Assembly (NCBI RefSeq): GCF_000153705.1
Contig: NZ_DS022272.1
Location: 1,991,839 to 2,055,838 of the forward strand
DNA length: 64,000 nt
Source: Fulvimarina pelagi HTCC2506
Lineage (GTDB): Bacteria > Pseudomonadota > Alphaproteobacteria > Rhizobiales > Rhizobiaceae
Direction: 5' to 3'
Part shown: positions 4,915-43,513 of the stretch, in pieces
Position numbering within the stretch: position 1 is the first letter of the stretch
Layout of the letters: each line of letters opens with the position of its first letter
Notes under the pieces: model-generated
Told to the model about the DNA's origin: nothing
Database searches by the model: none
Seen by the model: only the letters and a program-made list of their open reading frames with translations
Position numbers and translations under genes: made by a program

Positions 4915-5625
4915 TTACGCGCCCGGAGCCATACCGCCAAACCGTCCGGAGAAATCGCCGACTAGCAACTCCTCCGCATCTGAGCGCCGCCGACTTTTCG
5001 ACTTCACGAGACAGGCCTCGGAGCGCAGGATCGGCTCGTCGTTCAGTACCTTCAGATGGTTGGCCTTGAGCGTCGAACCGGTGGAAGTGATGTCGACGAT
5101 CACATCCGCAGAGCCCGCTGCCGGCGCCCCTTCCGTCGCGCCGAGGCTTTCGACGATCCGGTAGCTCTGGATACCATGCAGCCGGGTGAAATGGCTTTGA
5201 GTGAGCCGCCAGTATTTCGTTGCAATTCTCAAACGGCGACCGTGCCTCGCGCGGAAGGCGCCTGCGACATCGCCGAGATCGTCCATCGTCTCGACATCCA
5301 CCCAGCTATCCGGCACCGCGACCACCACGTCGGCATGACCGAAGCCGAGCCTCGCAACGATCTCGACAGCCCTCCCCGGGCTCGGGATCGATTCGCGAAT
5401 CAAGTCCTCGCCCGTCACCCCGAAGTCGATCGCCCCGTCTCGCAGCTCGCGTGCGATCTCGGAGGCCGAGAGAAGCAACACTTCCAGCCCGTCGAAGCCG
5501 GTCACGCTGGTGCGGTAGGATCGTGCGTTCGCCGCCGGCTCAACGGTGATCCCGGCGCCTGCCAGCGTTTCGATCGTCTTGTCCTTGAGCCGGCCTTTGG
5601 AGGGAATTCCGAGCGTAATCGTCAT
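4915..5625 (-). CDS. hisG: ATP phosphoribosyltransferase, short form
   Basis: A 236-residue HisG of the short type, which lacks the C-terminal regulatory ACT-like domain and works with HisZ. It joins ATP and phosphoribosyl pyrophosphate in the first step of histidine synthesis. Typical stretches are LGIPSKGRL (5-13), [11 protein letters not shown] (about 66-76), [10 protein letters not shown] and the PRPP-binding loop [15 protein letters not shown], whose TSTGSTL is characteristic. The ATG overlaps the hisZ stop (ATGA), giving equal expression of both subunits. It is the last gene of the hisS-hisZ-hisG operon. Feedback control by histidine is expected to act through HisZ. Confidence 0.97.
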
Positions 5626-6770
5626 GCCGCCGCTCCCTCGTTAGCCACGCGAACATGCTCCTTCAACCGGGCGAGCCAAAGCGAGAAGCCGACGGCCGGT
5701 ATCCGCTCCTCGGCCCCAAGCAGCGTCATCAGCCGGTCGTATCGCCCGCCGCCCGCCAGCGTCACGCCGCCGCCCTTGGGGCGCACCTCAAAGACCATGC
5801 CGGTGTAATAGTCGATCGGCCGCCCGAAGGCCGCGCGATAGGTGATCGCCGAAAGATCGACACCGGCTGCCTGAAGCGCGAGATTGCGCGTCTCGAAGAA
5901 GCCGATCGCCCGGTCGAGCACGAGGCCCGCCCCCTCGGCGAGCGCGCGCACGGCATCGGCCGCCTCTGCCAGCGGACAGTCGATCGCAAGAAACCGTTTC
6001 AGGAGATCGATCGAGCCGCCGCTCAACCGCCCTTCGGCCGTCGCCACCTTCTCAATCAGCCGTTGCGCGACCTCCTGCGGCGTGCGCCCTGAATGGGGCG
6101 GCAGACCCGCTTCCTCCATGCGGTCACGGATCGCGCGGATCAGCGCGCCCTCCTCCCGCTCGCGAGCGAGTTCCAGAAGCCCGTCCGGAACGTTATCCAG
6201 CGAGGTCGAGCCAGGATTGGCGAGCGCAGCCATCACATTGTCGAGCTGCCGGTCCTCGCCGAAGGTGCGGATCAGCCGGCGCTGCCAGCCGTCCGGCAGG
6301 CCGAGCGCCGACAGAAACGCCTCGAACAGCCCCTGATCGCCGAGCACGACATCGATGCTGTCCGCCTCGACACCCAGCACCTCACAGGAGGCGAGCGCAT
6401 CGGCGAGCGCGCGCGCATCGGCCGTCGCAAGGTTCGGCTCGCCCAGATCCTCGATCCCCGCTTGCTCGAGTTCGCGCGGTCCCTCCCCACCTCGCGGCTG
6501 GCGGAAGACGAGGCCTCGATAGGAATAGCGGCAGGGCAACGGCTCGCGCCGCTCGATATGGTGCAGGCAGACGGGAATTGTGAAATCCGGCCTGAGGCAA
6601 AGATTGATGCCCGCCTCGCCGCGCGTCAGATAGATGCGCCGACGCAGCGCCTCCCCCGCCGTGTCGAGATAGGGCTCGGCCGGCTGGAGCAGATCCATGG
6701 TGATCGCGCTCGCCCCGCGGGTCTCGAAGAGCGAAGCCAGCGCCTCGGCCGATGGGCTTTGAAGGCTCAT
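5622..6770 (-). CDS. hisZ: ATP phosphoribosyltransferase regulatory subunit
   Basis: A 382-residue histidyl-tRNA-synthetase paralogue that activates short HisG and passes on histidine feedback. The catalytic fold of class II synthetases is kept ([15 protein letters not shown] near residues 58-72, [12 protein letters not shown] near 83-94, [20 protein letters not shown], then GGRYDRLM) but the tRNA-charging residues are altered, as in other HisZ proteins. The reading frame extends further upstream into hisS; the ATG at 6770 is chosen because it gives the expected N-terminus and overlaps the hisS stop as ATGA. Both junctions, hisS/hisZ and hisZ/hisG, have four-base overlaps, so the three genes are a translationally coupled unit. 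Confidence 0.95.
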
Positions 6771-8440
6771 GCCGAGCGGCTCTCCGCCTGCCGGGCGAGG
6801 ATCGCGGCGACGGCCGCGACCAGTTCGCTCTCGTCCACCGTCTCCTGCCCCGCGCGCGCCTCGCGCCATTCGGCATTGTCGGTGATTCCCGCCGACATCT
6901 CCTTGCCGAGCGCCAGGTCCTTCACCTGCACCTTGCCGGCCGCCTTCTCGTCCGCGCCCTGGATGACGACGCAAGGCGAGTTGCGGCGATCGGCATATTG
7001 TAGCTGATTGCCGAACTTCTTCGGATTGCCCTGGAAGACCTCGACGGGCACCGGCGGTTTGCCCGGATCGGCGTTGAGCGCGGCTCGCAGGGTGGTCGCC
7101 ATCGCCTGATAATCGGCCATCCGGTCGCGATCCATCACCGTCACTACGACGGGCCCGGTCCGCTGTTCGGTCTCGAGCCGGCCGAGATTCTTGAGCGCGG
7201 TCATCAGGCGCGAGACGCCGATGGAAAAGCCCGTTGCCGGAACCGGCTGGCTCATGAAGCGCGAGACTAGCCCGTCATAGCGCCCGCCGCCGCCGACCGA
7301 GCCGAACTGCACCTTCTGGCCTTTTTCATTGACGACATCGAAGAGCAGCTCGGCTTCGAAGACCGGTCCGGTGTAGTATTCGAGGCCCCGGACGCACGAA
7401 AGATCTAGCTTAATCCGGTTTCTCTCGTATCCAGCGGCACGCCAATGCGCCGCTGCATCAAACAGTTGCCAAACGCCTTCGACGCCAACGCTGCTGCCAC
7501 TGACGTATTCTAGCAGATACACGATCGCATTAAGATCGTCGTGATCTAGTGCTGCAGCTGCGTTCGCTGCGCCGATCTTACTGCTTATTACGTTAAGTGC
7601 GCGGCTTCGATGCTCGTTATCTGAAAGGACCGATTTTTCAGTCGTAAAAAGCACACCGTCACGTACACCAAATTCTACGCCGACTGCGGCCGTATTAATG
7701 AAAACCGGTATTAGCGTGTTGACTTGATCGTCAGTAAGATTTTGGCCTGGCGTAAAGTCGCCGCTCTCATCTTTACGGCCGTTTGTCACCAAACTGATGA
7801 ACCCTTCAACGCCAACTCGATCCACTTTATCGATTGCTCTTAAGACACCTAATCGCCGGCCCGCATTCTCCTCGCCACCAAGCCCGATCGCCTCCAGCAC
7901 CCCGTCGAGCACCTTCCGGTTGTTGACCCGGATCACGTACTGGCCGCGCGGAATGCCCAGCGCCTCCATCGTGTCGGCCATCATCATGGCCATCTCGGCA
8001 TCGGCCGAAACGTTCGGCGCGCCGACGATATCGGCGTCGAACTGCATGAACTGGCGGAACCGCCCCGGCCCCGGCTTCTCGTTGCGGAATACATAGCCCG
8101 CCCGATAGGAGCGATAAGGCTTCGGCAGGCTCTCGTAATTCTCGGCGACGAAGCGTGCGAGCGGCGCGGTGAGATCGTAACGGAGCGACATCCACTGCTC
8201 GTCGTCGTCCTGCAGCGAGAAGACGCCCTCGTTCGGCCGGTCGCTGTCGGGAAGGAACTTGCCCAGCGCGTCGGTGAACTCGAAAACCGGCGTCTCGACG
8301 GGCTCGAACCCGTAAGACTCGTAGACCCGGCGAATGGTCGCCAGCATATCCTCCTGCGCCCGCAGATCCTGAGCCTCGCGATCGACGAAACCCCGCGGCA
8401 ATCGCGGGGCAACGCGCTTGGGCTTCTTGTCCTTGACCAT
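6767..8440 (-). CDS. hisS: Histidine--tRNA ligase with atypical insertion domain
   Basis: A 557-residue class II synthetase that charges tRNA-His. Motif 1 lies near residues 17-53, motif 2 near 110-136 ([19 protein letters not shown]), the histidine-binding signature [15 protein letters not shown] at 351-365 and motif 3 at 379-412 ([21 protein letters not shown]); an anticodon-binding domain follows. Oddity: the insertion domain, residues about 197-348 (bases 7397-7855), is AT-richer than the rest. Sixty-base blocks I counted were 45-52 percent GC there against 67 percent in the flank, and rarer codons are used. From memory of the family, the protein is also about 50 residues longer than usual rhizobial HisS, the surplus falling in this domain. 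First gene of the hisS-hisZ-hisG operon. Confidence 0.96.
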
Positions 8441-41129: not shown

Positions 41130-41861
41130 TCATCGCTGGACCTCGCCATGCGCGTTTCGTTCCGGATCCGCAATATCGGCCCCGACGCTCTCGCCTCGGT
41201 ATTCCAGCAGCGCCCAAAGGCGTCTTGCGGCGGCCGTTCCCGCGTCTCCGGAAAGGATCGCCGCATGTATCACATTTCCACCCCCGAGCGCCAAATCCAT
41301 TTCCTCTCCCGAAAACGGTGCGACGGCCGGGACCGCGTTCTCCATCATTCCATCGGCGCCCGCATAGCGCGCCGCCGTAATCCGACGTCGGCCGTCTTCG
41401 CTCGCGTCCTGCGCATGTAGGACGAGGAGCGCTGCACCGGAACGGGCCGCCGCCTCGACCTTCGCGGAGCCGGTGACCAGTTGCCCCGCCTTCTTAGCGA
41501 GGCCCATGGAGCCGAGCGCGGATTTGGCGAGCAGCCGGTCTAGATCGGCTCCTAAATCAAACGGACCCTTCACTTCCGCCCGGAAAGCGCGGGCGAAAAG
41601 TTTACGGCGAACCGCCTCCTCGACCGCTGCCCTATCACACCGGACATGCGCGCCGCGCCCCGGCAGGCGCCGCTTCAGGTCCGGTACCACATTCCCGTCC
41701 GGCGAGAGGACGAAGCGGACAAGGCGATCGGCATCCATCGTCTCGCGGCTCACGATGCAGGTCCGGTCGTTCAGAACCATCTCCTCTTCGTCAGCCGGAT
41801 CGCCCACGAGCGCGTCCGTCGTCACCAATCCTCGTTCCCTCGCTCGTTCGAAGCCAGGCAT
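41130..41861 (-). CDS. YlxR-type RNA-binding protein fused to an L7Ae-like domain
   Basis: A 243-residue protein. The YlxR (DUF448) domain is at about 31-110: NDRTCIVSRE, DRLVRFVLSPDGNVVPDL and PGRGAHVRCDRAAVEEAV with the conserved GRGA loop that binds RNA. A second half resembles the L7Ae/L30e fold (LGSMGLAKKAGQLVTGSAKV, then ALLVLHAQDASEDG). This two-domain form is typical of alphaproteobacteria, while most bacteria have the domains apart. Start at 41861 is chosen from the expected length; ATG 27 codons later is possible. It lies 50 bases after nusA and 94 before infB. Confidence 0.88.
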   Translation of the reverse strand: MPGFERARERGLVTTDALVGDPADEEEMVLNDRTCIVSRETMDADRLVRFVLSPDGNVVPDLKRRLPGRGAHVRCDRAAVEEAVRRKLFARAFRAEVKGPFDLGADLDRLLAKSALGSMGLAKKAGQLVTGSAKVEAAARSGAALLVLHAQDASEDGRRRITAARYAGADGMMENAVPAVAPFSGEEMDLALGGGNVIHAAILSGDAGTAAARRLWALLEYRGESVGADIADPERNAHGEVQR

Positions 41862-41911
41862 CGGGGAGCGTCCCTGAACGCCGGACACCGGATGATCGCT
41901 CCCGGCACCGC

Positions 41912-43513
41912 CTACGCGGTCTCTGCCTCGATTTCCTCCTCGGCCTCTTCGTCGCCGGCGAGGTCTTCCTCGGTGATCCAGCCCGCCTTCAGCCGGGCGT
42001 TGAGAACCATCTGCTCGGCATCGGCTCGGCTGACGTCGAACTTGCTCAGCGTGCCCTCGAAGCGCTTGGTCTCGCCCTTGGAACGCTCCGTCCAGCCACA
42101 AAGATCGTCGACCGCGTAGCCCGCGAAATCCTCGATCGTCTTGGTGCCGTCCTCGCCGAGCGCAACGAGCATCTCGGTGGTTAGACCCGGGATCTGCTTG
42201 AGTTCGTCGGCGACACCGAGTTCGACCCGTTTCGCGTCGAATTCGGCTTCACGCCGTTCGAGAAATTCGCGCGCACGGCTCTGAAGCTCTTCGGCGGTGT
42301 CCTCGTCGAAACCTTCGATCGAAGAGACCTCTTCCGCGTCTACATAGGCGACCTCTTCAACAGTCGCAAAGCCTTCGGACGCGAGAAGCTGACCGACCAT
42401 CTCGTCGACGTTGAGCGCCTCCATGAAGATTTCCGATCGCTCGTTGAATTCCTTCTGCCGACGCTCGGATTCTTCCTCCTCGGTGAGGATGTCGATATCC
42501 CAGCCGGTCAGCTGCGAAGCGAGACGCACGTTCTGCCCACGCCGGCCGATGGCCAGCGACAGCTGATCGTCTGGCACAACGACCTCTATGCGCTCGGCGT
42601 CCTCATCGAGAACGACCTTGGCGACTTCCGCCGGCTGCAGTGCGTTGACGATGAAGGAGGCCGCATCTGGCGACCAGGGAATGATATCGATCTTCTCGCC
42701 CTGGAGTTCGCCGACGACTGCCTGAACGCGGGAGCCGCGCATACCGACGCAGGCGCCAACTGGATCGACGGACGAATCGGACGAGACGACGGCGATCTTG
42801 GCACGCGAGCCCGGATCGCGGGCGACCGATTTCAGCGTGATGATGCCGTCGTAAATCTCCGGCACTTCCATCGTAAAGAGCTTCGCCATGAACTGCGGAT
42901 GGGTGCGCGACAGGAAAATCTGCGGACCCCGCGGTTCGCGGCGCACGTCGTAAACATAGGCGCGCACCCGATCACCCGGACGATAGAGTTCGCGCGGGAT
43001 CTGCTCGTCGCGACGGATGATGGCTTCGCCCTTGCCGAGATCGACGATGACATTGCCGTATTCGACGCGCTTGACCTGGCCGTTGATGATCTCGCCGACG
43101 CGATCCTTGTACTCGTCGTACTGCATGTCGCGTTCGGCTTCGCGCACCTTCTGCACGATGACCTGCTTGGCCGACTGTGCCGCAATGCGGCCGAAATCCA
43201 TCGGAGGAAGCTGCTCAGCGATGAAATCGCCGGGCTCGGCGTCGGGGTTCTTGTCGCGGGCGAGCTCCAGATAAATTTGCGTCGCCGGATCCTCGACATC
43301 TTCGACGACCTCGAGCAACCGCTGCAGCTTCATCTCACCGGTCTTGGTGTTGATATCACAGCGGATGTTGGTTTCCTGGCCGTAACGGCTGCGGGCCGCC
43401 TTCTGAATAGCGTCGGCCATCGCCTCGATGACGATCTCGCGGTCGATCGTCTTTTCACGGGCGACGGCATCCGCGATCTGCAGAAGTTCCAGCCTGTTCG
43501 CACTCACTGCCAT
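41912..43513 (-). CDS. nusA: Transcription termination/antitermination protein NusA
   Basis: A 533-residue protein binding RNA polymerase and nascent RNA. Domains in order: N-terminal polymerase-binding (about 1-125), S1 (about 135-200; GQVKRVEYGNVIVDLG), KH1 and KH2 (about 205-350; DPVGACVGMRGSRVQAV and LSLAIGRRGQNVRLASQL), then two C-terminal helix-hairpin-helix acidic repeats and an acidic tail rich in Glu and Ala. The ATG at 43513 has a GGAGG site; the frame extends 16 codons upstream without one. Second gene of the operon begun by rimP. Confidence 0.97.
   Translation of the reverse strand: MAVSANRLELLQIADAVAREKTIDREIVIEAMADAIQKAARSRYGQETNIRCDINTKTGEMKLQRLLEVVEDVEDPATQIYLELARDKNPDAEPGDFIAEQLPPMDFGRIAAQSAKQVIVQKVREAERDMQYDEYKDRVGEIINGQVKRVEYGNVIVDLGKGEAIIRRDEQIPRELYRPGDRVRAYVYDVRREPRGPQIFLSRTHPQFMAKLFTMEVPEIYDGIITLKSVARDPGSRAKIAVVSSDSSVDPVGACVGMRGSRVQAVVGELQGEKIDIIPWSPDAASFIVNALQPAEVAKVVLDEDAERIEVVVPDDQLSLAIGRRGQNVRLASQLTGWDIDILTEEEESERRQKEFNERSEIFMEALNVDEMVGQLLASEGFATVEEVAYVDAEEVSSIEGFDEDTAEELQSRAREFLERREAEFDAKRVELGVADELKQIPGLTTEMLVALGEDGTKTIEDFAGYAVDDLCGWTERSKGETKRFEGTLSKFDVSRADAEQMVLNARLKAGWITEEDLAGDEEAEEEIEAETA

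Follow-up and report, generated by a model that had tools for sequence, protein, structure and literature searches.

We analysed a 64-kb window, the whole stretch of DNA read from Fulvimarina pelagi HTCC2506 (genome G000), in which hisS, hisZ and hisG lie side by side on the minus strand (Table 1). The hisS product scored 350.1 bits against TIGR00442, above the curated cut-off of 286.75, and carries the histidine signature RGLEYYTG at residues 351-358; judged by the invariant columns of a 53-sequence alignment, signature and conserved catalytic body are both present. No second hisS was seen in this genome, the remaining weak matches being hisZ. For comparison we used G001, a congener whose hisS is identical to that of Fulvimarina endophytica (L062), and G002, a third Fulvimarina species. 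Among the matches listed, F. endophytica was the nearest named relative, with 93% identity in the N-terminal part of HisS.

Table 1 Features of the hisS locus in window coordinates
Feature	Position	Strand	Basis
hisS, histidyl-tRNA synthetase, alphaproteobacterial (eukaryote-like) type, 557 aa	6767..8440	-	ORF and TIGR00442
hisZ, HisRS-like ATP phosphoribosyltransferase regulatory subunit (longest ORF)	5622..6974	-	weak HisS similarity and S. meliloti annotation at the same place
hisG, ATP phosphoribosyltransferase	4915..5625	-	named by position after hisZ; hisG is annotated after hisZ in S. meliloti
block without blastn homology to hisS of G001 (= F. endophytica)	7398..7854	-	flanks align at 80% and 88%
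non-canonical insert, residues 236-341, 106 aa, replacing the canonical 55-60 aa segment	7418..7735	-	GC 0.51
AT-ending codons in a conserved part of the protein upstream of the insert; probable edge of the import	7745..7864	-	comparison with G001
predicted beta-hairpin in the insert, residues 256-267, absent from the canonical model	7640..7675	-	AlphaFold2, block confidence 54-59

A GC-poor, non-canonical insert in hisS

An earlier note, made from the letters alone, had described a low-GC block inside hisS, and sliding GC confirmed it: 150-base windows within 7400-7849 ran at 0.467-0.527, against about 0.65 on both sides. The edges proposed there (7397 and 7855) proved to be edges of DNA homology, since blastn aligned the window to the syntenic DNA of G001 over 4983-7398 (80%) and 7854-8440 (88%) and left the interval unaligned. 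Across 44 long ORFs that we selected within the 64-kb window, the minimum of hisS over 100-codon GC3 windows (0.42) was the second lowest, and GC3 windows at or below 0.52 made up 1.7% of the 688 sampled, hisS counted. The lowest minimum (0.39) belonged to the ORF at 41133-42248 on the minus strand.

We defined the insert as the segment between GDFTxGxxL and the histidine signature. Its GC3 was 0.46, compared with 0.80 in the remainder of hisS, and its 106 aa against the 55-60 aa of 102 canonical inserts agreed with the estimate that the domain is about 50 residues longer here. The window insert scored 8.8 bits against the canonical profile, on which canonical members reach 22.7 or more, and thus did not register as the canonical three-helix domain. 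Two causes were considered and discarded: an intein or mobile insertion, since the insert has no Pfam match up to E 1 and little canonical sequence is left, and a large overlapping gene, since no ORF of at least 100 aa besides hisS overlaps 7418-7735.

In 20-codon bins, identity between the G000 and G001 HisS proteins was 0.90-1.00 to about residue 192, fell to 0.2-0.3 over most of the insert (a gappy bin with three aligned residues being the exception) and recovered to 1.00 at the histidine signature. Over the 40 codons that precede the insert, amino-acid identity was 0.80 and 0.70 and GC3 was 0.35 and 0.65, against GC3 of 0.90 and 0.80 in G001. The protein is therefore largely conserved there while its codons are shifted, indicating that the codon shift does not merely follow the composition of a new protein segment. 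The earlier note had named equal length and GC in near relatives, together with a domain tree matching the gene tree, as speaking against its reading; instead, the three Fulvimarina genomes held three different inserts of 106, 64 and 67 aa, the last (G002) with a GC3 of 0.34. With residues 232-340 of the window HisS as query, no genome besides its own matched among 397 of the order.

AlphaFold2 models of the window form and the canonical form (L118) rest on shallow alignments and have weak cores (mean pLDDT 68 and 74 for the two), so that only the order of helices and strands is usable. The canonical model has three helices (225-235, 240-250 and 257-273; ten-residue block means 83-95). The window model has a helix at 237-247, a hairpin (256-260/263-267) and helices at 275-289, 291-297, 300-313 and 317-335, with block means of 54-94; the extra material thus seems to follow the first helix and precede the last two. 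Foldseek with these models returned HisRS structures at TM-scores of about 0.25-0.42.

Order-wide survey of the insert

We collected 250 hisS genes (245 distinct) from Hyphomicrobiales (Rhizobiales): 60 from relatives, 79 named loci drawn from the best 80 of the matches listed, 106 from 290 matching genomes taken best scores first, and five records of a plasmid collection; the genome collections hold one genome per species. Of these, L040 was excluded from just the first alignment, L062 was dropped as equal to L015, and G026 was left out because its hisS is split over contigs. L014, cut at a contig end, was kept; repeats of G057, G030 and G048 were dropped, L217 and L219 were not added, and five duplicates were removed before the tree and pair counts. 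Inserts were called canonical at 20 bits or more against the canonical profile and 62 aa or less, this threshold and the clusters being set by us.

Canonical inserts were found in 102 of the 250 genes and non-canonical ones in 148, the latter falling into 82 clusters at E 1e-3, 58 of them singletons. The canonical share varied by sample (18/60 among relatives, 45/79 among named loci, 36/106 in the order sample), and since none of these is a random draw, 148/250 is not an order-wide frequency. Lengths ranged from 41 to 149 aa; 93 non-canonical inserts exceeded 62 aa, all of which also scored below 20 bits, and 55 were of 62 aa or less. The GC3 deficit relative to the rest of the gene was 0.219 for non-canonical and 0.048 for canonical inserts (P 3e-21), although some non-canonical inserts are not GC-poor or are even GC-rich. 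The canonical form itself is conserved, with 84-96% identity in the four close pairs tried and 42-70% in the cross-family canonical pairs listed.

Two further observations concern particular groups of genes. A minimal 41-aa insert, in effect a shortened domain, is common to L251, L255, L258, L260, L263, L267 and L274 (family f181), L259 (f180), L113, L129 and L240. In Sinorhizobium meliloti, two records filed as plasmids and labelled pSymB (L214 and L217) carry hisS with identical canonical-looking inserts, and in L217 hisZ and hisG are annotated after hisS.

Inserts change between close relatives and recur across families

L118 and L132, one canonical and one non-canonical, have HisRS bodies that are 99.1% identical, and their DNA flanks align at 89-96% with a break at the insert. 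Among close pairs with different inserts, blastn broke at the insert in six of seven, the exception being L068/L069, which aligns through at 87%. We then counted pairs with at least one non-canonical member that share an insert cluster at E 1e-5. These were 1 of 5 pairs at a body identity of at least 98% and 7 of 73 at 95-98%, so that the insert type differs in 66 of these 73; the counts were 12/796 at 90-95%, 7/1285 at 85-90% and 8/1676 at 80-85%.

Similar inserts were also found in different families. Sixteen of the 24 multi-member clusters span at least two families, those of named loci being our own assignments (either to f1 or marked doubtful; f-numbers are family codes). Examples are L281/L324 (f165/f16, E 1.5e-15), L036/L302 (f1/f180), L013/L231 (f18/f166), L016/L309 (f1/f26) and L009/L244 (f7/f166), and, with loci that we placed in f1, L076/L319 (f20) and both L075 and L139 with L329 (f179). 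No pair reached 1e-3 in an all-against-all comparison of one shuffled set of inserts. On a FastTree tree of HisRS bodies, the canonical or non-canonical state changed 45 times, compared with a mean of 77 and a minimum of 65 in 200 shuffles, indicating inheritance with phylogenetic signal plus much switching.

The flanks of the insert carry a related signal. In hosts with a GC3 of at least 0.7, the ten codons before the insert had a GC3 of 0.70 in non-canonical and 0.86 in canonical genes, with parity reached about 50 codons upstream; downstream in GC-rich hosts, only the first ten codons clearly differed (0.78 vs 0.87). Third-position differences at codons for the same residue were 0.41 in different-allele pairs and 0.31 in canonical pairs over the first ten codons upstream, these pairs not being independent of one another. 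The excess was found in most bins, with one near-insert bin showing almost none (0.358 vs 0.350) and one distant bin raised (0.300 vs 0.208). We read these GC3 and third-position signals as marks left by tracts of homologous recombination.

Within clusters, dN was below dS in the five same-cluster non-canonical pairs for which both could be measured, three of the eight pairs giving no dS. Compared with the rest of the gene, dS of the insert was mixed and rests on few codons (2.39 vs 0.257 in L021/L108; 0.491 vs 0.852 in L077/L109).

Other synthetases and other taxa

We compared four synthetases in 15 congener pairs from five genera, which were picked for differing hisS inserts, so that low HisRS values were selected for. 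Identity in the poorest 40-residue stretch was 0.08-0.33 for HisRS (median 0.12), 0.43-0.63 for ProRS and 0.55-0.93 for ThrRS, and no replaced block of the HisRS kind was seen in ProRS or ThrRS of these pairs. As an effect of trimming, many minima in these comparisons sit at exactly 0.60 close to the ends. AspRS stayed at 0.60 or above in 13 of the 15 pairs, and the remaining two trace to a single insertion of about 86 aa common to two congeners. This in-frame insertion in aspS (L344 and L345; genomes G341 and G364, f166) is conserved between the two, absent from a third congener (L332, G204) and unrelated to the hisS block.

Outside the order, 19 hisS genes of the same HisRS type were fetched, and all 18 that could be read have inserts of 50-62 aa. 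L151, L152 and L161 were read by eye at 58 aa, with no GC figures used, and L164 gave no reading; in the 15 genes with usable figures, GC3 of insert and body differed by at most about 0.15. The remaining matches outside the order are more distant HisRS or HisRS-like proteins and did not enter the comparison. One of the outside genomes (G151; C24 and C51) holds two eukaryote-like hisS-like genes.

tRNA-His does not follow the insert

tRNA-His of this group, with A73 and no G-1, has been linked to a HisRS acquired from eukaryotes (available part of PMC3937112). The F. pelagi gene (L203) has A73 and no templated G-1, the trait expected with an alphaproteobacterial HisRS, and the same was found in all 30 tRNA-His genes read from 61 genomes searched. 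The acceptor arm GCGGTTG occurred in 11 of the 30, in genomes that hold two canonical (G021 and G027) and nine non-canonical inserts; G000, G001 and G002 have this same arm and three different inserts. Since one acceptor arm goes with canonical and very different inserts, matching at the acceptor end is not the cause of the variation. The earlier note had offered recombination, change to match tRNA-His or avoidance of an attacker: the first was supported by the homology breaks, the recurrence of insert types across families and the flank GC3 and synonymous signal, and the second found no support. The third is the driver that we prefer, but the phage, viral-contig and family searches described below gave no attacker.

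Search for an antagonist, donor or reservoir

Twenty phage records matched HisS; identity stayed under 60% in every case, and in no record did a single place cover 80% of the query. Among viral contigs, neither the window insert nor three insert clusters used as alignments gave a match, and the N-terminal part of HisS matched two, L207 and L208. Judged by their neighbours, both look like chromosomal hisS, that in L207 beside prophage genes and that in L208 with a canonical-looking insert, and they were rejected as viral genes. At L207:5728-5783, close to the insert, hisS falls into two overlapping ORFs, whereas the related gene in L208 is uninterrupted.

Insert clusters A3 and A5, each searched against 397 genomes, matched 55 and 131, with one match per genome and many matches over the conserved C-terminal end only. 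The five matches compared by coordinates (G217, G425, G277, G260 and G332) all lie in hisS, and no second reservoir was seen among them. Pfam returned a single match for ten inserts, at E 0.085 and below its cut-off, with no intein or endonuclease domain, and PHROGs returned four matches for eight inserts at E 0.054-0.18, to families of unknown function. Taken together, the phage, viral-contig and family searches and the 397 genomes of the order yielded no antagonist, donor cassette or phage relative.

Discussion

Comparison of the genes provides good support for regarding the HisRS insertion domain in Hyphomicrobiales as an exchangeable allelic module that has been replaced repeatedly by mostly low-GC forms, and for regarding the window allele as one such import. 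The first and last helices may anchor the segment on the enzyme body and accept many segments between them, so that swaps would be tolerated in what is probably a peripheral add-on. DNA from members of the order or from unsampled donors would be taken up by homologous recombination within the conserved flanks, and the resulting tract, mostly low in GC, would extend into them. As to what drives the exchange, we prefer an antagonist that binds the HisRS surface as the most likely cause: a phage protein, toxin or defence component could penalise common alleles, and imported rare alleles would then spread. For the explanation as a whole, an exchangeable module whose alleles are kept diverse by an antagonist, we put the probability at roughly 0.5.

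The variation might instead reflect neutral tolerance, with an outer segment so little constrained that any folding in-frame import, or drift, is accepted and recombination only reshuffles the result. The position of the segment between retained helices in the models, the wide span of lengths and the empty antagonist searches all favour this reading. We nevertheless consider it rather unlikely, because the canonical form is conserved within and across families, inserts stay at 50-62 aa in all 18 readable genes outside the order, the five non-canonical pairs measured for both have a lower dN than dS, and the over-representation of GC-poor sequence is not readily predicted by drift in a GC-rich gene. 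Selection by an agent that recognises the surface fits better than tolerance alone, a judgement that we hold at slightly short of even odds, given that many alleles are kept, that selection is purifying where measurable, that the alleles are mostly GC-poor, and that the pattern affects one of the four enzymes compared and, so far, one order. Co-evolution with tRNA-His, in which the domain adapts to the unusual alphaproteobacterial identity of this tRNA, draws on the A73, no-G-1 trait and on the movement of the insertion domain upon histidine binding as part of an induced fit (available part of PMC4335047); it is contradicted at the acceptor end by the 30 genes and the shared arm described above, and we regard it as very improbable.

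An attack on the DNA itself, by a homing endonuclease, an integrase or a self-targeting CRISPR spacer, with repair or escape bringing in foreign sequence, would account for a site that is always the same, for foreign composition and for tracts that reach the flanks. It also has a parallel, in that a CRISPR spacer matching hisS is reported to inhibit growth of a Geobacter strain carrying the Pelobacter gene (available part of PMC2923632). Escape from cleavage, however, should need a few synonymous changes and not dozens of new protein segments, and together with the Pfam result for the ten inserts this makes such an attack improbable. Equally doubtful is a moonlighting or regulatory role, with each insert a lineage-specific site for a cellular partner such as HisZ/HisG or another protein. 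The neighbourhood of hisS, hisZ and hisG would suit it, and a general role in binding has been suggested for segmentally variable proteins (available part of PMC387263), but blastn aligns hisZ and hisG without a break between G000 and G001. Partners would moreover need to change as fast as inserts that are unrelated between near-identical HisRS bodies.

Few enzymes are more conserved than the aminoacyl-tRNA synthetases, whose insertion domains are commonly accounted for by roles in tRNA binding or editing. The variable segment resembles the canonical insertion domain of class II HisRS in its place before the histidine signature, its first and last helices and the rest of the enzyme, and differs from it in that the canonical form has 55-60 aa and three modelled helices, whereas the window form is a GC-poor insert of 106 aa for which a beta-hairpin and additional helices are predicted. 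Mosaic loci diversified by recombination under selection are known from surface antigens and restriction specificity subunits. hisS shares with them conserved flanks, unrelated central alleles and exchange between lineages, and departs from them in that the locus encodes an essential cytosolic translation enzyme. We know of no exposure of HisRS to immunity or phage.

The nearest published concept is that of segmentally variable genes (Zheng, Roberts and Kasif 2004, PMC387263), in whose text the word "histidyl" is absent. Such genes carry 70 aa or more of variable sequence flanked by conserved regions, as hisS does here with its 106-aa insert and conserved flanks. In its available part, that work names aminoacyl-tRNA synthetases as segmentally variable, with ProRS as example, and attributes their variability to tRNA recognition, for which our tRNA-His comparison gives no support. 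No published report of this HisRS insert variation was found in the open literature, a scope that leaves subscription journals mostly outside.

These findings have practical consequences for work on the order: hisS is unsafe as a phylogenetic marker there, and a low-GC block in a gene should not be taken for transfer of the whole gene. We tentatively propose that the domain may be an order-wide conflict hotspot, recognised by phage proteins, toxins or defence effectors of a class not yet known, with a shared pool of alleles crossing families as immunity cassettes within an essential gene. An order-wide pool of exchanged, unrelated alleles without change at the tRNA acceptor end would suggest that translation in rhizobia, agrobacteria and their relatives faces a so far unrecognised attacker.
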